This document shows, one piece after another, positions 9,616 to 41,467 of a DNA stretch of 64,000 nucleotides. The stretch covers positions 9,375,001 through 9,439,000 of the forward strand of contig NZ_CP095481.1 in assembly GCF_023023025.1 (NCBI RefSeq). Direction: 5' to 3'. The stretch's first letter is position 1, and each line of letters starts with the position of its first letter. The notes beneath the pieces are model-generated. The model was not told where the DNA came from and ran no database searches. It saw only the letters and a list, made by a program, of their open reading frames with translations. This stretch comes from Amycolatopsis sp. WQ 127309 (GTDB lineage Bacteria; Actinomycetota; Actinomycetes; Mycobacteriales; Pseudonocardiaceae). Position numbers and translations under genes: made by a program.

Positions 9616-10491
9616 ATGGACTACCCGGACACCGTCGCGGAGCTCACCGGGGCGTTGCGCGGCGGCGGTTACCTCGCCGACCGCGGCCTCGCCACCGCGC
9701 TGCTGGTGGCGGTGTCGCTGCACCGGCCGCTGCTGCTGGAGGGCGAGGTCGGCGTCGGCAAGACCGAGCTGGCGCGCACCCTCGCCGCGGTCTTCGGCAA
9801 GCGGCTGATCCGGCTCCAGTGCTACGAAGGCATCGACACCGCGCAGGCGCTCTACGAATGGGACTACGCGCGCCAGCTGCTGCAGATCCGGGCCCTGCCG
9901 GAGCGCGAGGCCGCCGGCGAGACGGCCGTCGACCAGCTCTTCGGTCCGAAGTTCCTGGTGGAGCGCCCGCTGCTGGCCGCCGTCCGGGCCGGCGCCGGGG
10001 CGGTGCTGCTGATCGACGAAATCGACCGCGCCGACGACGAGTTCGAGGCGTTCCTGCTGGAGCTGCTGGCCGACTTCCAGGTGACGATCCCGGAGATCGG
10101 CACGATCACCGCGGCCACGCCCCCGGTCGTGCTGCTGACGTCCAACCGCACCCGCGAGCTGCACGACGCGCTGAAACGGCGCTGCCTGTACCACTGGATC
10201 GACTATCCCGACGCCGAGCGCGAGGCCGAGATCGTGCGGATCCGCGAGCCCGGCGCCGGGGAAGCGTTGACGCGCAAGGTGGTCGCGGCCGTGCACCGGC
10301 TCCGGGAGCTGGACCTGGCGAAGCCGCCGGGCGTCGCAGAGACCGTCGACTGGGCGCGGATGCTCACCTTCCTCGGCGCGGCGGACCTCGACCACGCTTC
10401 GGCCACCGACACCCTCGGCGCCGTCGTCAAGGACCGCGACGACCTCGACGTCGTGCGCGAGCACCTGGCGGAACTCACCTCCGGTGCCTGA
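9616..10491 (+). CDS. coxD: MoxR-type AAA+ ATPase, CoxD-like
   Basis: AAA+ chaperone of the MoxR class. In CO dehydrogenase systems CoxD is needed to build the Cu-S-Mo active site. The 291-residue protein has Walker A GEVGVGKT, Walker B LLIDEIDRAD, sensor 1 LLTSNRTREL and an arginine-finger region DALKRRCLYHW. It directly abuts the preceding ORF and overlaps coxE by 8 nt. Assignment to CO metabolism rests on the VWA partner and the coxMSL operon 8 kb away. Confidence 0.88.
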   Translation: MDYPDTVAELTGALRGGGYLADRGLATALLVAVSLHRPLLLEGEVGVGKTELARTLAAVFGKRLIRLQCYEGIDTAQALYEWDYARQLLQIRALPEREAAGETAVDQLFGPKFLVERPLLAAVRAGAGAVLLIDEIDRADDEFEAFLLELLADFQVTIPEIGTITAATPPVVLLTSNRTRELHDALKRRCLYHWIDYPDAEREAEIVRIREPGAGEALTRKVVAAVHRLRELDLAKPPGVAETVDWARMLTFLGAADLDHASATDTLGAVVKDRDDLDVVREHLAELTSGA

Positions 10492-11584
10492 CCTGGCGCG
10501 GGTCCTCGTGGGGTTCGGGCGCGCGCTGCGGGCCGAGGGCCTCGCGGTCGGCACCGGCGACGTCCTCACCTTTTGCCGGGCGGCGGCCCGGCTCGACCCC
10601 GCCGATCTGGTCGACGTCTACTGGGCGGGCCGGATGACGCTGGTGCGCCGCCGCGAGGACATCGCGCGCTACGACGTCGTCTTCCGCCGCTGTTTCCTCG
10701 ACGCCGACGACGCGTCGCCCGAGTTCGCCACCGTCACCGCCACCCTGGAGTCCGACGCCGTGCTCTCCCTGCCGGAGTCCGGGAACCCCGGGGAAGAACA
10801 GGAGACCCCGCATGCCGCCGGACTCGCCGCGTCCACTGTGGACAGCCTGCGGTACAAGGCGTTCGGCGCCTGCACGCCCGACGAGCTGGCGGCGATCCGG
10901 CGCATGACCGTCCGCCTGGGGCTGACGCCCCCGCGCCGGCGGACCCGCCGGAGCCGCCCCGCCCGCACCGGGCCGATCGCCGATCTGCGCGCCACCGTGC
11001 GCGAGTCACTGCGGCTGTCCGGCGAACCGGCCCGGCTGCACCGGCGCCGCCGCCGCGTCCGGCCCCGGCCGCTGACCCTCGTCCTCGACGTCTCCGGGTC
11101 GATGGCGGACTACTCGCGCGCCCTGCTGCAGTTCGCGTACTCGGCGGGCCGGGCCACCACGCACGTCGAGGTGTTCTGCTTCGGCACCCGGCTCTCGCGG
11201 ATCACCGACGAGCTGCGCACCCGTGACGTCGACGAGGCCCTCGACCGCGCCGCGAAAGCCGTCTTCGACTGGGACGGCGGCACGCGGATCGGCGCGTCGC
11301 TGGCCGAGTTCGTCCGCACGTGGGGCCGGCGGGGCCGGTGCCGCGGCGGCATCGTCGTCGTCTGCTCCGACGGCCTCGACCGCGGCGACCCGGACGTCCT
11401 GGCCCGCGCGGTCGAGCGGCTGGCCCGGCTGTGCCACCGTCTCGTGTGGACGAACCCGCACCCCGGCGGTGACTCGCTCGGCCTGAGCGTGGTGCGCCCG
11501 CACGTCGACGTCCTCGTGTCCGGCCAGGACCTGCGCGGTCTCGAGGAGCTGGCCGCGCTGCTGCCGGCGCTGGAGCGCTCGTGA
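10484..11584 (+). CDS. coxE: VWA-domain protein, CoxE-like
   Basis: Partner of the MoxR ATPase; CoxE proteins assist insertion of sulfur and copper into CO dehydrogenase. The 366-residue protein has an arginine-rich linker and a C-terminal VWA domain with the metal-ion-dependent adhesion site DVSGSMADYS, plus the supporting GGTRIGASL and CSDGLDRGD blocks. GTG 10484 overlaps coxD by 8 nt, and the stop overlaps the next start (GTGA), showing a tightly coupled operon. Confidence 0.9.
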   Translation: MPDLARVLVGFGRALRAEGLAVGTGDVLTFCRAAARLDPADLVDVYWAGRMTLVRRREDIARYDVVFRRCFLDADDASPEFATVTATLESDAVLSLPESGNPGEEQETPHAAGLAASTVDSLRYKAFGACTPDELAAIRRMTVRLGLTPPRRRTRRSRPARTGPIADLRATVRESLRLSGEPARLHRRRRRVRPRPLTLVLDVSGSMADYSRALLQFAYSAGRATTHVEVFCFGTRLSRITDELRTRDVDEALDRAAKAVFDWDGGTRIGASLAEFVRTWGRRGRCRGGIVVVCSDGLDRGDPDVLARAVERLARLCHRLVWTNPHPGGDSLGLSVVRPHVDVLVSGQDLRGLEELAALLPALERS

Positions 11585-13994: not shown

Positions 13995-14002
13995 GGAACG
14001 TT

Positions 14003-14036
14003 CCGAGTGTGCCTGGTCGCGGCCGGGCACACTCGG
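14003..14036. terminator. Bidirectional hairpin terminator
   Basis: Stem CCGAGTGTGCC / GGCACACTCGG of 11 bp between the convergent small acidic protein gene and the lipoprotein gene; ends 8 nt from each stop codon. Confidence 0.7.
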
Positions 14037-14042
14037 CGAGCG

Positions 14043-14321
14043 CTAGCCCGGCCGCCGGCGGGTGGTCGTTCGGCGGTGTGTGGTCGTCTTTCTCGGGGTC
14101 ACCGTTGTCGTGTGGGCTCGGGTTGTCCGGTCGTCCGGGGCCGTCGTCGTGGTCACCTGAGGCGTTGTCGTCGAGACCGACTGAGTCACCGTCGATTCCG
14201 TTGTGGACGGAACCGGCGTCGTCGGCTGTTGCACCACCTGGCCGCTTCCCGACCGGCCCCCGCTGCACGCGGCGAGGACCACTCCCGCCGTCAGCACCAG
14301 GCCGCACCACCACACTCGCAT
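14043..14321 (-). CDS. Small Thr-rich lipoprotein
   Basis: The 92-residue protein has a signal peptide with lipobox VLAAC (Cys near residue 19), then a low-complexity Thr/Ser/Pro/Arg-rich tail (TTTTAPDDRTTRAHTTTV) typical of exported, possibly glycosylated actinobacterial lipoproteins. Function unknown. Confidence 0.6.
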   Translation of the reverse strand: MRVWWCGLVLTAGVVLAACSGGRSGSGQVVQQPTTPVPSTTESTVTQSVSTTTPQVTTTTAPDDRTTRAHTTTVTPRKTTTHRRTTTRRRPG

Positions 14322-14367
14322 CGCCCGGACGCTACCAGCGCGTCCCGTGCGAAAGGGGCGAAACGGC

Positions 14368-14712
14368 TCAACGCGGTGCGAAGCCGACGGCGTCGTGCAG
14401 GCGGGAGCGGCGGGTGCCCGAGGCCGGGCGGGCCACCGCGGCGGCCGGTGCCGGGGCGGCCCGGACGATGTCCTCCGCCATTCCGTACAGCAGCGGCAGC
14501 GCGCCCGCCACCACGGCCCCGGTCCGGTTGATGTGCGTGACGCCCGGGACGATCAGCGCCGCGTGGCCGTTGATCGTGCGCACCGTCTCCGCGCACTCCT
14601 CCAGGTTCGTCGCGATCCGGGCCAGCAGCGAGCCCACCCAGAACAGGTAGAACGCCAGGCCCGCGATCAGCAGCACGATGTCCAGCACCGTCAAGACGAC
14701 CAGCAGCGTCAT
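14368..14712 (-). CDS. Single-pass membrane protein 5 of cox operon
   Basis: Last of five tiny related proteins. 114 residues: N-terminal hydrophobic segment (MTLLVVLTVLDIVLLIAGLA to about residue 28), then an amphipathic stretch (LEECAETVRTINGHAALIVPG) and an Arg/Ala-rich tail. ATG 14712 overlaps the preceding gene by 4 nt (ATGA). The region GHAALIVPGVTHINRTG parallels the NTAP-type motif of its siblings. Function unknown; linked to CO dehydrogenase by operon position. Confidence 0.7.
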   Translation of the reverse strand: MTLLVVLTVLDIVLLIAGLAFYLFWVGSLLARIATNLEECAETVRTINGHAALIVPGVTHINRTGAVVAGALPLLYGMAEDIVRAAPAPAAAVARPASGTRRSRLHDAVGFAPR

Positions 14713-14957
14713 GTCCGGGCCCTCCCCAGGAACAGGTGGTGCTCCAGGCCTTCCGCGAGCACCGCGTCCACTCGCGACGCCGTCTCCGGGATCAGCGACG
14801 TCGACGCCGTGTTCGACGCCGCCGCGGCCAGGGTGTCCCGCACCGCCACCACCCGGCGGTCGATCACCCGGACCAGCACGATCAGCACGCTCAGCAGCGC
14901 CGCCACCGCGAGCACCACCACGAACCCGGCGATCACCGCCACCCACCACGACGTCAT
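14709..14957 (-). CDS. Single-pass membrane protein 4 of cox operon
   Basis: 82 residues: one strong N-terminal transmembrane segment (residues about 4-30, beginning MTSWWVAVIAGFVVVLAV), then basic DRRVVAVRDTLAAAASNTAS and an amphipathic helix. Same architecture as its neighbours. It starts 1 nt after the stop of the preceding gene and overlaps the next by 4 nt. Confidence 0.7.
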   Translation of the reverse strand: MTSWWVAVIAGFVVVLAVAALLSVLIVLVRVIDRRVVAVRDTLAAAASNTASTSLIPETASRVDAVLAEGLEHHLFLGRART

Positions 14958-14958
14958 G

Positions 14959-15201
14959 TCAGCCTCCCAGCCTGGTCCGGCCGCGCCGCAGCCCGGCGAC
15001 GATCGCTTCGGCGTGCTCGATGGTCGTGCTCAGCTCCGCGAGCGGCGCCGTGTTACGAACGGCGTCACGCAGGGCGCCGTCGATCAGCGGGGCCTCGCGC
15101 CCGATCGCGCGGGCCAGCAGCAGGATCGGCACCACCAGCGCGACGACGACCAGCACGACCACGATTCCGATCGCGAACCCCACCACCCAGCCGGTGCTCA
15201 C
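14959..15201 (-). CDS. Single-pass membrane protein 3 of cox operon
   Basis: 80 residues: hydrophobic helix at about 5-30 (GIVVVLVVVALVVPILLLA), basic junction, then NTAPLAELSTTIEHAEAIV amphipathic helix with the same NTAP-type motif as protein 2. GTG 15201 overlaps the previous gene by 4 nt. No known family recognised. Confidence 0.7.
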   Translation of the reverse strand: MSTGWVVGFAIGIVVVLVVVALVVPILLLARAIGREAPLIDGALRDAVRNTAPLAELSTTIEHAEAIVAGLRRGRTRLGG

Positions 15202-15425
15202 ACCGACTCGCAGAAGTCGCGGACGGGCTTGAGGTTCGCGTTGACCGAGGCGAGCGCGCCCGGCACCGGCGCGGTCCGGTCGGCGACCACCCGCACGCCG
15301 CCGGTGACGGCGCGGAGCGTGTCGCGGATGTGTCGCAAGTGGAGGATCACCCGCAGCAGCCCGACCGCGGCGAACAGGATGATCAGCGCGGCGATGACCA
15401 GGGTGGACCAGGCGACGACCGGCAT
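15198..15425 (-). CDS. Single-pass membrane protein 2 of cox operon
   Basis: 75 residues: transmembrane segment at about 5-28, basic patch LHLRHIRDTLR, then RTAPVPGALASVNANLKPV. The APVP-ALA element is nearly identical to protein 1 (EPVPAALAQTDRTI), supporting a paralogous origin by tandem duplication. ATG 15425 lies 13 nt after protein 1. Confidence 0.7.
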   Translation of the reverse strand: MPVVAWSTLVIAALIILFAAVGLLRVILHLRHIRDTLRAVTGGVRVVADRTAPVPGALASVNANLKPVRDFCESV

Positions 15426-15438
15426 CACGGAACTCCTT

Positions 15439-15693
15439 TCAGCCCAGCAGTTTCGCGACGCTGCCCGCGTACCGGGTCGCGCCGACGGCGACTTCGCCGA
15501 TGGTCCGGTCGGTCTGGGCGAGCGCCGCCGGCACCGGCTCCAGCTGCCCGGCCAGCTCGACACCGCCCTCGAGAACGTCGTCGGTGGCCGCGCGGATCCG
15601 TTCGCACGCGGCCAGGACGCGGTTCAGCAGCGCGATCACCACCGGCAGCACCACGAACAGCAGCACGGCGTTGCCGATCCACCACATGGTCAT
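15439..15693 (-). CDS. Single-pass membrane protein 1 of cox operon
   Basis: 84 residues: transmembrane segment at about 5-25 (IGNAVLLFVVLPVVIALL), then a long amphipathic region with LEPVPAALAQTDRTIGEVAV. A GAGGAGG ribosome site precedes ATG 15693, only 9 nt after the coxG stop. First of the five-member array. It could anchor or organise CO dehydrogenase at the membrane, but no function is known. Confidence 0.72.
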   Translation of the reverse strand: MTMWWIGNAVLLFVVLPVVIALLNRVLAACERIRAATDDVLEGGVELAGQLEPVPAALAQTDRTIGEVAVGATRYAGSVAKLLG

Positions 15694-15702
15694 GGCACCT
15701 CC

Positions 15703-16269
15703 TCAAGCGGTATAGGGCAGGAAGAATCGGCGGAACACGCGTCTCAACGCCATGAGCGTCGCCTGCAGGCCGATGCTGAACCCGCGCGCCGGGGCCGCGC
15801 CGGCGACCTCCTCGCCGCGTTCGGCGCGGTCGATGCCGCGCTGCAGGTTGGCCGCGAAGTCGCGCATCAGCACGGAGGTGACGTCGGCGATCATGCCGCG
15901 CCCGTACTGCGCCGCCGCGCCGGAGACCTGCAGGTCCTGGGTGACGTGCACGCGTGTCACGCCGCCGGCCGACGTCAGCCGGGCGGTGACGGTCATGCTC
16001 GCCTGGCCGCGGCCCTTCTCGTCGGCGCCCGCCGCGTCGACGACGATGCGCTTCGCGGCGTCATCCCGGGACGCGATCTTCGCCGTGCCACCGAACTTCA
16101 GCGCCACCGGGCCCATCCGGACACTCACGCGGCCCTCGTACGCCTCGTCGCCCAGGTCCTCGGTCAGCTCGGCGCCGGGCAGGCACGCGGCCACCTTCGG
16201 GACGTCGTCGAAGAACCGCCAGACCTTGTCGATCGGCTGCCCGACCGCGAACTCGTTCTCGATCAGCAT
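15703..16269 (-). CDS. coxG: CoxG (SRPBCC) membrane-linking protein
   Basis: CoxG ties CO dehydrogenase to the membrane and is reported in mycobacteria to handle quinone. The 188-residue protein has an SRPBCC lipid/quinone-cavity domain (about 1-145, including KVWRFFDDVPKVAACLPGAELTE split over the FDDVPKVAACLPG motif) and a C-terminal amphipathic, Arg/Phe-rich segment (LQATLMALRRVFRRFFLP) suited to membrane contact. It starts 7 nt inside the preceding XdhC gene and is followed closely by the five membrane proteins. Confidence 0.9.
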   Translation of the reverse strand: MLIENEFAVGQPIDKVWRFFDDVPKVAACLPGAELTEDLGDEAYEGRVSVRMGPVALKFGGTAKIASRDDAAKRIVVDAAGADEKGRGQASMTVTARLTSAGGVTRVHVTQDLQVSGAAAQYGRGMIADVTSVLMRDFAANLQRGIDRAERGEEVAGAAPARGFSIGLQATLMALRRVFRRFFLPYTA

Positions 16270-17164
16270 CGGCTCTCCTTCTTCGCGTACGCGGCCGGGT
16301 CCCGCCGGAACGCGTCGCGGCACCCGGCGCAGCAGAAGTAGTACGCGACGCCGTCGCACTCGACCGGATCGCGCCGGGCCACGGTCATCCCGCACACCGG
16401 GTCGAGGGCCTCCTCGGCGACGCGCTCGACGACCCGCACCGGACGCGCCGCCGCGCGCAACCGGACCAGTTCGGCGAGCACGGCGACCGCGATCTCCCGG
16501 TGCTCGACCGCGCCGAGGTCGACGCCGGCGGGCACCTGGACGCGAGCGAGCCGCTCGGCGGGCACCCCGCGGTCGGCGAGGTAACCGAGCACCGCCTCGC
16601 CCCGCTTGCGCGAACCCACCAGCCCGACGTACGCCGGGTTCCGCGTCAGCGCGCGTTCCAGCGTCTCCTCGTCGTGGTGGCCCTGGGTCGCGACGACCAC
16701 GTAGGACCGTTCGGTCACCGAAGCCAGGTCTTCGCTCAGCTCCGCCCGCCAGCCCAGCGCCGTCGCCAGCGCGACCAGCGTGTGCGCCAGCGGCGAGCGG
16801 CCGGCCACCACGAGGTGCGGGGCCGGGACGACCGGCTCGACGTAGATCTCCAGCGCGCCCTCGCTCTGGCACGAGATCGGCACGACGGTCATCCCGTCGG
16901 GCACCGACCCGAACCGGTCCGGGGTGCCGAGCAGCAGCAACCGCGGGGTGCCCTCGGCCAGCGCCTGCCGAGCCTCGCGCAGCACCACGGGTTCCGCACA
17001 GGCGCCGCCGATCCAGCCGTGCAGCTCGCCGTCCTCGGTGACGATCGCGCGGCAGCCCTCCTTGCCCGACGACGGGCCTTCGCGCCACACCACCGTGGCG
17101 AGCGCGAACGCCTCACCGCGGCGGGCCCGGTCGCCCGCCTCCGCCAGCACGTCCCAGCCGTCCA

Positions 17165-17165
<1 letters not shown>
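16263..17165 (-). CDS. XdhC/CoxF-like maturation factor fused to a YHS domain
   Basis: XdhC-family proteins load or sulfurate molybdenum cofactor for hydroxylases such as CO dehydrogenase. The 300-residue protein has an N-terminal XdhC domain with WREGPSSGKEGCRAIV and GWIGGACAE, a Rossmann-like half (HLVVAGRSPLAHTLVAL; GLVGSRKRGE), and a C-terminal YHS domain (about 252-300) with DPVCGM and YYFCCAGC, a metal-binding Cys cluster. The ATG overlaps the coxL stop by 1 nt. The YHS module could deliver copper, an inference. Confidence 0.88.
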
Positions 17166-19551
<2,386 letters not shown>

Positions 19552-19555
<4 letters not shown>

Positions 19556-20076
19556 TGGTCTTCCTTCCGCAGTTTCGCGGCGGCCCAGAGCACCGACTTG
19601 ACGATGTTCTGGTACCCGGTGCACCGGCAGAGGTTGCCCGACAGGGCCCAGCGGACGTCCTCTTCGGACGGATCGGGTTCGCGGTCCAGCAACGCTTTCG
19701 CGGCGAGCATCATGCCGGGCGTGCAGAACCCGCACTGCAGGCCGTGCTCCTCGCGGAAGCCCTCCTGCACCGGGTGCAGCTCGCTGGCCGTCGCCAGGCC
19801 TTCGACGGTGGTCACCTCGTGGCCGTCGGCCTGCACGGCGAGCATCGTGCAGGACTTCACCGGCGTGCCGTCGACGAGCACGGTGCACGCGCCGCAGCTG
19901 GTCGTGTCGCAGCCCATGTGCGTGCCGGTGAGGCGCAGCCCCTGCCGCAACAGGTGCGACAGCAGCAGCCGCGGCTCGCACTCGATGACCCTGCGGCGGC
20001 CGTTCACGGTCACCGTGATCCGGCGTTCGGGGACGCCCGCGGAAGGTTCGTCGCGGACTTCGTGCACGAGGCTCAT
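19552..20076 (-). CDS. coxS: Aerobic CO dehydrogenase small (2x[2Fe-2S]) subunit
   Basis: Electron-transfer subunit linking the Mo site to FAD. The 174-residue protein has a plant-type [2Fe-2S] domain (GCDTTSCGACTVLVDG, KSCTM) and a C-terminal helical [2Fe-2S] domain (QCGFCTPGMM and LCRCTGYQNIV), all eight cysteine ligands present. A roughly 16-residue N-terminal extension precedes the ferredoxin fold. Start overlaps coxM stop by 4 nt and its own stop overlaps coxL. Confidence 0.96.
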
Positions 20077-20933
20077 CGGGTGGTCCCTTCCAGGGCACGC
20101 ACCACGAAGGTGTGCACCACGTGCCGCTTGTACGCGGCGCTGCCGCGGTGGTCGCTCTTCGGCCGGGCGGCCGCCGCGGCGAGCGTCGCCGCCTCTTCGA
20201 TCGTCTCGGCGGTCAGCGGGCCGCCGACGAGCGCCGCGGCCGCGTCGGCGCACTCGATGGTGGCGCCGCCGACGCCGGTGAGCGCGATCCCGGCCCGGCT
20301 GACCCGGCCGTCGGTGGTGGTGTCGACGGCGACCGCGACGCCGACCGTCGCGAAGTCGCCGACCCGGCGTTCCAGCTTGAGGTAGCCACCCGACGGCGTC
20401 CCGCGCGGCGCGGGGATGACGGCCTCGACGGCGATCTCGTCCGGGGCGAGGGCGTTCTGGAACGGGCCGAGCACGAACTCGCGCGCCGGGATGCTCCGCC
20501 GTCCGTCCAGCCCGGCCGCGACGATCGAGCCGTCGAGGGCCAGCACCACCGACGCCCAGTCGCCCTGCGGGTCGGCGTGGCACAGCGACCCGACGAGCGT
20601 GCCGCGGTTGCGGACGATCGGGTCGGCGATGAGCGGCGCGGCGGCGGCCATGGTCGGCTGGGTGTCGCGCAGCAGGTCCGACCGTTCCAGCGTCACGTGC
20701 CGGCAGAGCGCGCCGACGTGCAGGTTCCCGGCGTCGTCGACCTCGTGGTGGTCGAGCCCCGGGAGGTTGTTGATGTCGACGAGCAGCGCGGGCGCGGCGA
20801 AGCGGAGCTTCATCAGCGGCACCAGGCTCTGCCCGCCGGCGAGGACCTTCGCCTCGTCGCCGTGGTCGCGCAGCAGGCCGAGCGCCTCGTCGAGGTCGCG
20901 CGGGGCCTCGTAGGAGAACCGGGTCGGGTACAT
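20073..20933 (-). CDS. coxM: Aerobic CO dehydrogenase medium (FAD) subunit
   Basis: FAD subunit passing electrons from the iron-sulfur subunit to the quinone pool. The 286-residue protein has the FAD pyrophosphate motif AGGQSLVPLMKLR, the second FAD motif TLVGSLCHADPQGD and a CO_deh_flav C-terminal domain. It is the first clear cox gene of the operon, 19 nt downstream of a small ORF. Confidence 0.95.
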   Translation of the reverse strand: MYPTRFSYEAPRDLDEALGLLRDHGDEAKVLAGGQSLVPLMKLRFAAPALLVDINNLPGLDHHEVDDAGNLHVGALCRHVTLERSDLLRDTQPTMAAAAPLIADPIVRNRGTLVGSLCHADPQGDWASVVLALDGSIVAAGLDGRRSIPAREFVLGPFQNALAPDEIAVEAVIPAPRGTPSGGYLKLERRVGDFATVGVAVAVDTTTDGRVSRAGIALTGVGGATIECADAAAALVGGPLTAETIEEAATLAAAAARPKSDHRGSAAYKRHVVHTFVVRALEGTTR

Positions 20934-39113: not shown

Positions 39114-41467
39114 CGGCGAACGGCCACGGTTCCTTGCCCCGCAAGGAAGACGGCCGGTTCGTCCGCGGCCGCGGCACGTTCCTCGACGACGTGACCCGGC
39201 CCGGCATGCTGCACGGCGCGATCCTGCGCAGCCCGCACGCGCACGCCCGCGTCGTCGCGATCGACACCAGCGCCGCCGAAGCGCACCCGAAGGTCCGGGC
39301 CGTCATCACCGGCGCGATGCTGGCCGAACGCGGCATGGCGTGGATGCCGACGCTGTCCCACGACGTCCAGGCCGTGCTGGCCACCGACAAGGTCCGGTTC
39401 CAGGGCCAGGAGGTCGCGTTCGTCGTCGCCGAAGACCGCTACGCCGCGCGAGACGCGCTCGAGCTGATCGACGTCGAGTACGAGCCGCTGCCGGTGATCG
39501 CCGACGCGCGGACCGCCCTCGACGCCGACGCCGTGTTGATCCGCGACGACGTCGAAGGCCGTACGGACAACCGGATCTTCGACTGGGAGTCCGGTGACGC
39601 CGAGGCGACCGCCGACGCCTTCGCCCGCGCGGACGTCGTCGCGACGCAGGACATGCTCTACCCGCGGGTGCACCCGGCGCCGATGGAGACCTGCGGCGCG
39701 GTCGCCGAGCTGGACCCGGTCACCGGCAAGCTGACCGTCTGGGCCACCGCGCAGGCGCCGCACGCGCACCGGCTGCTCTACTCGATGATCACCGGGCTGC
39801 CCGAGCACAAGATCCGGATCGTCGCGCAGGACATCGGCGGCGGGTTCGGCAACAAGGTCGGGATGTACCCCGGTTACCTGTGCGCGGTCGCGGCCACGAT
39901 GCTCACCGGCCGGCCGGTCAAGTGGGTCGAGGACCGCTCGGAAAACCTGATGAGCACGTCGTTCGCCCGCGATTACCACATGCACGGCGAGATCGCGGCG
40001 ACGCGCGACGGGAAGCTGCTCGGCCTGCGCGTGCGGGTGCTGGCCGACCACGGCGCGTTCAACGGCACCGCGCAGCCGTCGAAGTTCCCGGCCGGGTTCT
40101 TCCAGGTCTTCACCGGTTCCTACGACCTGCCCGTGGCGCACTGCGCGGTCACCGGCGTCCACACGAACAAGGCGCCGGGCGGCGTGGCGTACGCGTGTTC
40201 CTTCCGCATCACCGAAGCCGTGTACCTGGTCGAGCGGATGATGGACGTGCTCGCCTACGACCTCGGCGTCGACCCGGCGGAGCTGCGGGAGCGGAACCTG
40301 TTGCGGCCCGGGCAGTTCCCGTACACCTGCGCGACCGGCTGGGAGTACGACTCCGGCGACTACCCCAGGGCGCTGGCGCTGGCCAAGGAGATCGCCGGCT
40401 ACGACGACCTCCGCCGCGAGCAGAAGGAGAAGCGCGAACGCGGTGAGCTGATGGGCATCGGCCTGAGCTTCTTCACCGAAGCCGTCGGCGCCGGCCCGCG
40501 CGAGCACATGGACATCATGGGCCTCGGCATGGCCGACGGCGCCGAGCTGCGCGTGCACCCGAGCGGTTCGGCCGTGCTGCGGCTCTCGTGCATGTCCCAG
40601 GGCCAGGGGCACGAAACGACGTTCGCCCAGATCGTCGCGCACGAACTGGGCATCCCGACGGACGAGGTCGAGGTGGTGCAGGGCGACACCGACCGCACGC
40701 CGTTCGGCCTCGGCACCTACGGCTCGCGTTCGACGCCGGTGTCCGGCGCGGCCACCGTGCTGGTGGCGCGGAAGGTGCGCGCGCGGGCGCGGCTCGTCGC
40801 CTCGGCGATGCTCGAGGTCAGCCCGGACGACCTGGAGTGGGAGCCGGGCCGCTGGTTCGTCCGCGGGGTGCCGGACCAGGGCCGGTCGATGCGCGAGATC
40901 GCCCGCGCCGCGCACTCCGACCTGGCGCTGCCCGAAGGCGTCGAAGGGCAGCTCGACGCGTCCTGCGTCTACAACCCGCCGAGCCTGACCTACCCGTTCG
41001 GCGCCTACATCTGCGTCGTGGACGTCGATCCCGGCACCGGCCAGGTCCGGGTGCGCCGGTTCGTCGCGGTCGACGACTGCGGCGTCCGGATCAACCCGGC
41101 GATCGTGGCCGGGCAGGTGCACCGCGGCCTCGCCGACGGGATCGGGATGGCGCTGATGGAGCTGATCGCGTTCGACGACGACGGCAACCACCTCGGCGGA
41201 TCCTTCATGGACTACCTGCTGCCGACGGCCCTGGAGTGCCCGTCGTGGGAGCTGGGCGAGACGTGCACGCCGTCCCCGCACCACCCGATCGGCGCCAAGG
41301 GCATCGGCGAGTCCGCGACGGTCGGCTCCCCCGCCGCGGTGGTCAACGCCGTCGTCGACGCACTGCGGCCGTACGGCGTGCGGCACGCGGACATGCCGCT
41401 GACACCGGCGGCGGTCTGGTGCGCGATGCAGGGCCGTCCACTTCGGACGGACCTGGCGATCACCTGA
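39110..41467 (+). CDS. coxL2: Form I CO dehydrogenase large subunit, second set
   Basis: 785-residue molybdenum subunit with the form I motif AYACSFR (Cys363), GGGFGNK, QGQGHETTF and GAKGIGE. The AYxCSFR motif distinguishes it from form II proteins (AYRGAGR) whose CO activity is doubtful. No coxD, coxE, coxG or xdhC follows, so maturation probably depends on the genes at 9.6-17 kb. Confidence 0.94.
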   Translation: MTANGHGSLPRKEDGRFVRGRGTFLDDVTRPGMLHGAILRSPHAHARVVAIDTSAAEAHPKVRAVITGAMLAERGMAWMPTLSHDVQAVLATDKVRFQGQEVAFVVAEDRYAARDALELIDVEYEPLPVIADARTALDADAVLIRDDVEGRTDNRIFDWESGDAEATADAFARADVVATQDMLYPRVHPAPMETCGAVAELDPVTGKLTVWATAQAPHAHRLLYSMITGLPEHKIRIVAQDIGGGFGNKVGMYPGYLCAVAATMLTGRPVKWVEDRSENLMSTSFARDYHMHGEIAATRDGKLLGLRVRVLADHGAFNGTAQPSKFPAGFFQVFTGSYDLPVAHCAVTGVHTNKAPGGVAYACSFRITEAVYLVERMMDVLAYDLGVDPAELRERNLLRPGQFPYTCATGWEYDSGDYPRALALAKEIAGYDDLRREQKEKRERGELMGIGLSFFTEAVGAGPREHMDIMGLGMADGAELRVHPSGSAVLRLSCMSQGQGHETTFAQIVAHELGIPTDEVEVVQGDTDRTPFGLGTYGSRSTPVSGAATVLVARKVRARARLVASAMLEVSPDDLEWEPGRWFVRGVPDQGRSMREIARAAHSDLALPEGVEGQLDASCVYNPPSLTYPFGAYICVVDVDPGTGQVRVRRFVAVDDCGVRINPAIVAGQVHRGLADGIGMALMELIAFDDDGNHLGGSFMDYLLPTALECPSWELGETCTPSPHHPIGAKGIGESATVGSPAAVVNAVVDALRPYGVRHADMPLTPAAVWCAMQGRPLRTDLAIT

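Follow-up and report, generated by a model that had tools for sequence, protein, structure and literature searches.

Five small membrane proteins encoded behind coxG of a CO dehydrogenase operon belong to the HylTM1-5 families of [NiFe]-hydrogenase clusters

The window analysed here, a stretch of 64,000 nucleotides from Amycolatopsis sp. WQ 127309, carries on its minus strand an operon with the gene order coxM-coxS-coxL-xdhC/coxI-coxG, followed by five small genes, s1-s2-s3-s4-s5. The product of coxL (17165..19555, 796 aa) scores 1100 bits against the large-subunit model TIGR02416 (cut-off 991) and displays the loop AYRCSFR, a form of AYXCSFR. This identifies the host operon as that of a form I Mo-CO dehydrogenase (Mo-CODH), in line with an earlier sequence-only reading of the window. 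Its closest solved relative in a PDB profile comparison is the CoxL of 8uem (952 bits). The minus-strand ORFs 19552..20076 (174 aa) and 20073..20933 (286 aa) are presumably coxS, for the iron-sulfur subunit, and coxM, for the FAD subunit, as judged from their position. Behind coxL lie the gene of an XdhC/CoxI maturation factor with a C-terminal YHS domain (16263..17165, minus strand) and coxG (15703..16269, minus strand, 188 aa; PF06240, 55.5 bits against a cut-off of 22.2). Two plus-strand genes convergent to the operon, 9616..10491 and 10484..11584, are taken by us to encode a coxD-type MoxR AAA ATPase and a coxE-type VWA protein; a coxD-type gene is found near the operon in relatives as well.

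The five small genes occupy the same strand as coxL and each encodes a protein with one transmembrane (TM) helix: s1 (15439..15693, 84 aa), s2 (15198..15425, 75 aa), s3 (14959..15201, 80 aa, with a GTG start), s4 (14709..14957, 82 aa) and s5 (14368..14712, 114 aa), the latter ending in a C-terminal RRSRL...VGF peptide. Their spacing is tight, with 9 nt between coxG and s1, 13 nt between s1 and s2, a 4-nt overlap of s2 and s3, 1 nt between s3 and s4 and a 4-nt overlap of s4 and s5; positions, lengths and spacing all agree with the initial description. In a family scan, none of the five reached a Pfam or NCBIfam cut-off. A promoter and terminator scan of 14000-16400 found none, such a scan being uninformative at this G+C. 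A Thr-rich minus-strand ORF of 92 aa (14043-14321), by eye a lipoprotein, starts 46 nt past s5. The window also holds a second form I CoxL (39128-41437, plus strand) with AYACSFR, 57% identical to the first; in several relatives (L040-L044, L046 and L057) such a second coxMSL lies, divergently, directly beside the array-bearing one.

Since the same gene order recurs in many genera, the array is not a chance arrangement. The order s1-s2-s3-s4-s5 was found behind coxG at 21 of the 27 loci whose coxL is at least 69% identical to that of the window; five of the other six run off the contig and are undecidable, and one differs. Among 150 genomes of the same family, 14 coxL loci reach at least 79%: the array is present at 13, with the contig of one ending behind s2, and the 14th (G080) runs off its contig. 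A wider sample of 396 genomes of the phylum added 13 coxL loci of at least 69%, with the array behind coxG at eight and four off contig. At the differing locus, in G316 (coxL 72%), nothing of the array follows coxG; the sole members there are s1-s2, which run divergently from coxD. Homologues of s1 occur in 19/150 same-family genomes and 10/46 genera, one match (G051, E 0.0045, within a 1327-aa frame) looking spurious, and in 0/14 same-family genomes that carry only the 56-59% coxL clade. Several hundred extra bases separate s2 from s3 in L045 and L047. In the phylum-wide sample the set accompanies a form I CODH at L174, L175, L177, L180-L183 and L202, and precedes coxM of a distant form I CODH at L201 and L206; G048 has the array, and the coxL search gave no match there. 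Among the CoxL proteins checked, those that go with an array, including the distant L201/L206 type, have AYRCSFR, and AYACSFR or AYSCSFR is found in those of 55-59% identity that lack one. As a gene finder trained on the codon use of the window missed genes in loci of lower GC (L048-L051, L058), six-frame HMM searches were relied on.

The same five families were also found in [NiFe]-hydrogenase clusters of the 1l and 1m types in several phyla, often in the order hydS-s3-s4-s5-s1-s2-hydL, the type labels resting on gene order and neighbours as published and not on a HydDB class. In this hydrogenase order s3, s4, s5, s1 and s2 of the window take places 1 to 5. The sequence-only reading had assigned the array to CO dehydrogenase alone, which proved too narrow: a role restricted to CODH is ruled out by the presence of the set in hydrogenase clusters without cox genes, the very outcome that this reading had named as refuting. 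At L052-L055 and L060, for instance, the set lies beside NifU-like, HupD-type protease, DUF1059-like and TPR genes (assigned by eye) with no cox operon, on contigs that carry [NiFe]-hydrogenase genes; the large subunit of L060 has as its best PDB match 5aa5, an actinobacterial-type enzyme (472 bits, versus 139 for Huc chains). In G003, G049 and G071 the hydrogenase genes are flanked by s1-s2 and s3-s4-s5 on one contig, and in G028 these two blocks are split over two contigs. The phylum-wide search with s1 gave 44 places in 37 of 396 genomes. The surroundings of 40 were inspected, the others being G438:C9, G476, a second G365 place within a stretch already covered and the window's own; the set was seen in 1m-like loci such as L176, L186 and L193. 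The full hydS-s3-s4-s5-s1-s2-hydL order is present at L208 and L210-L212. The array rows of L208 and L210 equal those of L221 and L222, from Actinomycetota records, which identifies the phylum of this sample. No hydrogenase large subunit was found in the window's genome (G000); its set stands behind coxG and not between hydS and hydL.

The named genomes were scanned with a hydrogenase alignment, and the best 80 of the 369 relatives were searched with HMMs of s1-s5. These HMMs had been broadened by adding divergent members, six hydrogenase loci of the 1l type among them; in their earlier form they already recovered all five families in L208-L213. Among these best 80 hydL loci, all five families were found in 46, four in 11, three in nine, two in six, one in two and none in six. 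Five of the last six have at most 525 bases upstream of hydL; in the sixth, L299, hydS adjoins hydL and 3.1 kb upstream is available. Of the best 80 loci plus L208-L213, 69 yielded an accepted member, and 48 of these have exactly s3-s4-s5-s1-s2, a locus count that contains the duplicates L208/L221, L210/L222, L279/L280 and L288/L290. In other loci, many of them from Acidobacteriota, the genes upstream of hydS are arranged differently, as s4-s2-s3-s5 or parts of it. Within the best 80, loci with at least four families were distributed over Chloroflexota (12/18), Bacteroidota (10/12), Acidobacteriota (9/15), Pseudomonadota (8/8), Gemmatimonadota (6/7), Actinomycetota (4/7), Thermomicrobiota (3/5), SAR324 (2/2), Myxococcota (1/1), Deinococcota (1/1) and genomes without a phylum (1/2), with none in Armatimonadota (0/2); the Pseudaestuariivita atlantica locus (L280) has all five. 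In addition, coxD-like genes lie near s1-s2 pairs or arrays in four hydrogenase-type loci (L188, L189, L192, L207), with coxE-like genes too in L192 and L207.

These hydrogenase sets are, in part, already known. Group 1l [NiFe]-hydrogenases have been described with five short single-TM proteins, HylTM1-5, and group 1m clusters with two single-TM proteins of 82-92 aa (PMC9561532, the former citing an earlier study). Our 1l-type loci were equated with the published ones on gene order. HylTM1-5 and s1-s5 are alike in number, length and single TM helix and belong to the same five families by profile search, but HylTM1-5 are arranged as s3-s4-s5-s1-s2 between hydS and hydL, whereas s1-s2-s3-s4-s5 stand behind coxG of a Mo-CODH, and sequence identity between them is low. 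The two published 1m proteins correspond to s1-s2, with HupD/HybD-, TPR-, DUF1059- and NifU-like neighbours; in the 1m-type loci L060, L126-L128, L176, L186 and L193 we additionally found s3-s4-s5 adjoining hydS, an arrangement that the passages of PMC9561532 on these clusters do not mention. The earlier statement that no description of such a set was known therefore holds only for the link to CODH, for which no publication was found in the literature searched, subscription papers and supplements lying outside its scope. Within that literature, where PMC9561532 alone uses the name HylTM, the set itself is known from hydrogenases and its homology to the CODH array is the new part.

Co-occurrence was examined at the level of enzyme clades. 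In the 396 genomes of the phylum, s1 was found in 30/31 genomes with hydL of at least 52% or coxL of at least 69% identity, versus 7/365 others, counts in which related genomes are not independent and for which both thresholds were set after the identity gaps had been seen (hydL 52% versus 42%, coxL 69% versus 66%). The single miss, G494, has its hydL cut by the contig start. As for the seven genomes with s1 outside these thresholds, G166 has 1m-type genes on the same contig, G357 and G410 are of the L201/L206 type, and G252, G360, G402 and G542 are left over. Genomes with only a hydL of 37-42%, which we take to be of the canonical 1h type, contained s1 in 3/34 cases, two of the three carrying coxL of at least 69%, and those with only a coxL of 54-66% in 3/42; such rarity indicates that neither enzyme type needs the set in general. 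The set goes with particular clades of both enzymes and not with the enzymes as such.

Some arrays stand apart. By tblastn, neither a cox gene nor a related hydrogenase was found on the stretches L056, L061, L063, L064, L197 and L200, other neighbours in L061, L063, L197 and L200 being judged by eye. The stretch L050 (G002:C39), where likewise neither kind of gene was found, has two arrays on one contig: s1-s2-s3-s4, which is CODH-like, and s3-s4-s5-s1-s2. A further s5 lies there on the opposite strand. Some arrays adjoin longer open frames, of about 200 to 360 codons, that are weakly similar to s1, s2, s3 or s5 (L190 12828-15066, L195 2752-4868, L199, L202 6355-8427, L203 11735-13302, L205); these frames perhaps represent a further class of such proteins.

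Profile-profile comparison resolved s1-s5 into two paralogous subfamilies, {s1,s3,s4} and {s2,s5}. Over whole proteins the E values were 6e-12 for s3-s4, 2e-12 for s2-s5, 3e-8 for s1-s3 and 2e-8 for s1-s4, with a lowest E of 3.8e-4 in reversed-sequence controls. When the membrane helix was removed, s2-s5 alone stayed clear (4e-8), and s3-s4 (1.7e-4), s1-s3 (1e-3) and s1-s4 (6e-3) weakened, so the placement of s1 depends on the membrane-helix part. Between subfamilies the best values (s2-s3 1.3e-4, s2-s4 2.4e-4, s1-s5 2.6e-4) lie barely under the control. Similarity among the five proteins is thus present, and their initial description as paralogues stands within each subfamily but not across them; a single origin for all five is unsupported. 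The related motif proposed for their tails (EPVPAALA, NTAPLAEL and so on) was not borne out either, no single motif being common to all five. The segment concerned coincides with a break in the s1 model (residues 52-53) and lies around positions 49-62, where Thr/Asn are conserved in the five families.

A concatenated tree of 91 loci, each with at least four families and with no root inferred, placed the CODH-linked sets in two separate groups with support of 100 each, one of 21 loci, with coxL of at least 69% wherever a coxL gene is on the stretch, and one of L201 and L206, in which the gene order is hydrogenase-like. Forced union of the two was rejected (p-AU 5e-8, 61 rows). This test was devised once the first tree was known; five long-branch loci and alternate 1l rows were excluded from it, and it used a 'quick' tree with SH-aLRT support only. 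The separation of the groups implies that the set became linked to CODH on more than one occasion, that it was exchanged, or that it was lost and later regained.

The predicted anatomy is shared by all five families. The claim of one N-terminal membrane helix followed by a basic junction was upheld in each of them, as counted over 98-125 distinct sequences per family of at least 40 bits: the 20 residues after the helix contain on average 2.3-3.1 K/R per family versus 0.1-0.3 in the 20 before it, 91-99% of sequences have more K/R after than before, and a second hydropathy stretch above 1.6 occurs in 0-6% per family (by a cruder count, some of the s2, s4 and s5 genes have two stretches). Since the basic residues follow the helix, the tails should be cytoplasmic (N-out/C-in), where the enzymes are expected. 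Tail hydropathy, as family means, has a best period of 3.40-3.50 in all five, at a strength in the helical band that 0 or 1 of 2000 shuffles reached; this heptad periodicity is a mark of coiled coils. AF2 models of s1 and s5 alone gave long helices in both cases, 2-51 and 54-83 in s1 (mean pLDDT 92) and a single helix 2-85 in s5 (mean pLDDT 86, the tail lower), with low pTM (0.48 and 0.41, respectively), as for lone long helices. Foldseek gave no match of the s1 model in the PDB. In PDB profile searches the top matches of s5 were designed helical bundles, followed by natural coiled coils, and s2 matched a designed five-helix and a designed four-helix bundle, matches that we read as reflecting the heptad pattern and not homology; s1 had weak matches only (best 0.006), and s3 and s4 had none.

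One element distinguishes the CODH-linked sets. The C-terminus RR[ST]R[LIM]...VG[YFI] of s5 is present in 17/21 CODH-linked copies and in 0/69 other s5; L180 and L182 have near variants by eye, and L195 and L202 are without it. The enzymes themselves appear to be devoid of a membrane anchor. Hydropathy stretches in CoxM, CoxS and CoxL reach at most 1.37, and a relaxed twin-arginine pattern, RRRVI, early in CoxS is taken as chance within the ferredoxin-like domain. Similarly, neither an early RRxF[LIVMF] nor a 19-residue stretch above 1.8 (highest 1.68) occurs in any of 64 complete small subunits of the hydrogenases. Both enzyme kinds would thus share a cytosolic location, as far as can be read from sequence, and, according to the literature, electrons bound for the respiratory chain.

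Collectively, the five families travel together, in the company of form I CODH and of [NiFe]-hydrogenases of the 1l/1m types, and are the sole membrane component repeatedly seen with both. The five may form a tube, serve as an anchor or provide CoxG with a platform. The proposed membrane scaffold or quinone platform agrees with the N-out/C-in topology, the heptad helices and the company of soluble quinone-linked oxidases, though not in its limitation to CODH. We favour, with reservation, the reading that s1-s5 are a CODH-linked five-part HylTM module, which would form a hetero-oligomeric coiled-coil stalk tethering soluble oxidases and giving them access to quinone in the manner of HucM. HucM forms a coiled-coil tube associated with the membrane, the probable route of menaquinone to Huc (PMC10017518). 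The five proteins may assemble as a parallel coiled coil rising of the order of 90 Å from the membrane (about 64 s5 helix residues beyond the membrane part at 1.5 Å each), use the s5 C-terminal peptide, CoxG or both to dock the soluble CoxMSL at the membrane, and shorten or channel the menaquinone path; the device would do likewise for the hydrogenases, enzymes without an anchor of their own. The proposed likeness to HucM, also a membrane-associated stalk for a trace-gas oxidase, with amphipathic helices and a hydrophobic inner face, is one of anatomy: HucM is one protein in four copies, peripheral at the membrane, whereas the stalk would consist of five different membrane-anchored subunits.

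A bolder form of this idea is tentative at best. Here s1-s5 would be a transferable hetero-oligomeric TM coiled-coil tube, perhaps a pentamer with one of each, that gives cytosolic trace-gas oxidases in general a conduit for quinone; it would have been joined at least twice to Mo-CODH and separately to 1l and 1m hydrogenases, would be a counterpart of HucM of separate origin and would carry an s5 docking peptide specific to CODH.

The module could also be a simple anchor that holds the enzyme at the membrane while CoxG or another carrier does all the quinone work, which we consider unlikely. CoxG, which shares the operon with s1-s5 but belongs to a different Pfam family (PF06240), is reported, as cited in PMC13240472 and PMC13077300, to bind quinone and to connect Mo-CODH with the quinone pool. 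Moreover, coxG is kept in array-bearing CODH operons, and the s5 peptide was seen only in CODH-linked sets, as a docking tag would be. On the other hand, five distinct conserved subunits are many for an anchor, and the hydrogenase loci searched for coxG gave no match, so something else must pass electrons to quinone there.

A role in assembly, maturation or stability, with s1-s5 as a membrane platform while the enzyme is built and no part in electron transfer, appears improbable. The set does share clusters with XdhC/CoxI, CoxD and CoxE, and in 1m-type loci with HupD-, NifU- and TPR-like genes, and the coxD-like (L188, L189) or coxD- and coxE-like genes (L192, L207) near hydrogenase-linked arrays would fit. 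However, in 1l-type loci the five sit between the two structural genes, and coxD, coxE and xdhC-like genes also accompany coxL in a clade that lacks the set (L057).

That s1-s5 are an envelope or signalling module, of chemoreceptor- or DUF948-like coiled coils merely riding in soil-bacterial trace-gas clusters, is very improbable, since weak profile matches to chemoreceptor coiled coils, one relative named DUF948 by a database and the arrays away from both enzymes stand against the tight association with the enzymes, the position between hydS and hydL in many phyla and the absence of any Pfam or NCBIfam cut-off reached by s1-s5. For DUF948 as for any other named family, membership of the window's five proteins was rejected on those cut-offs, and among the members of the s1 and s5 alignments each listed family was matched by at most five (HemY_N by 3/45, best E 5e-6).

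The s1 profile matches 4784 of 7999 scored candidates and the s5 profile 4449 of 8000, paralogues possibly included, and the named candidates among the matches listed are mostly called hypothetical; the two profiles thus give a handle on thousands of small proteins. The shared set suggests one common device linking both kinds of soluble enzyme to the cell membrane. The way in which soluble Mo-CODH and 1l/1m hydrogenases pass electrons on to quinone in the membrane bears on the biological sinks of atmospheric CO and H2, and a homologous five-part membrane set in both kinds of cluster makes this question directly testable.
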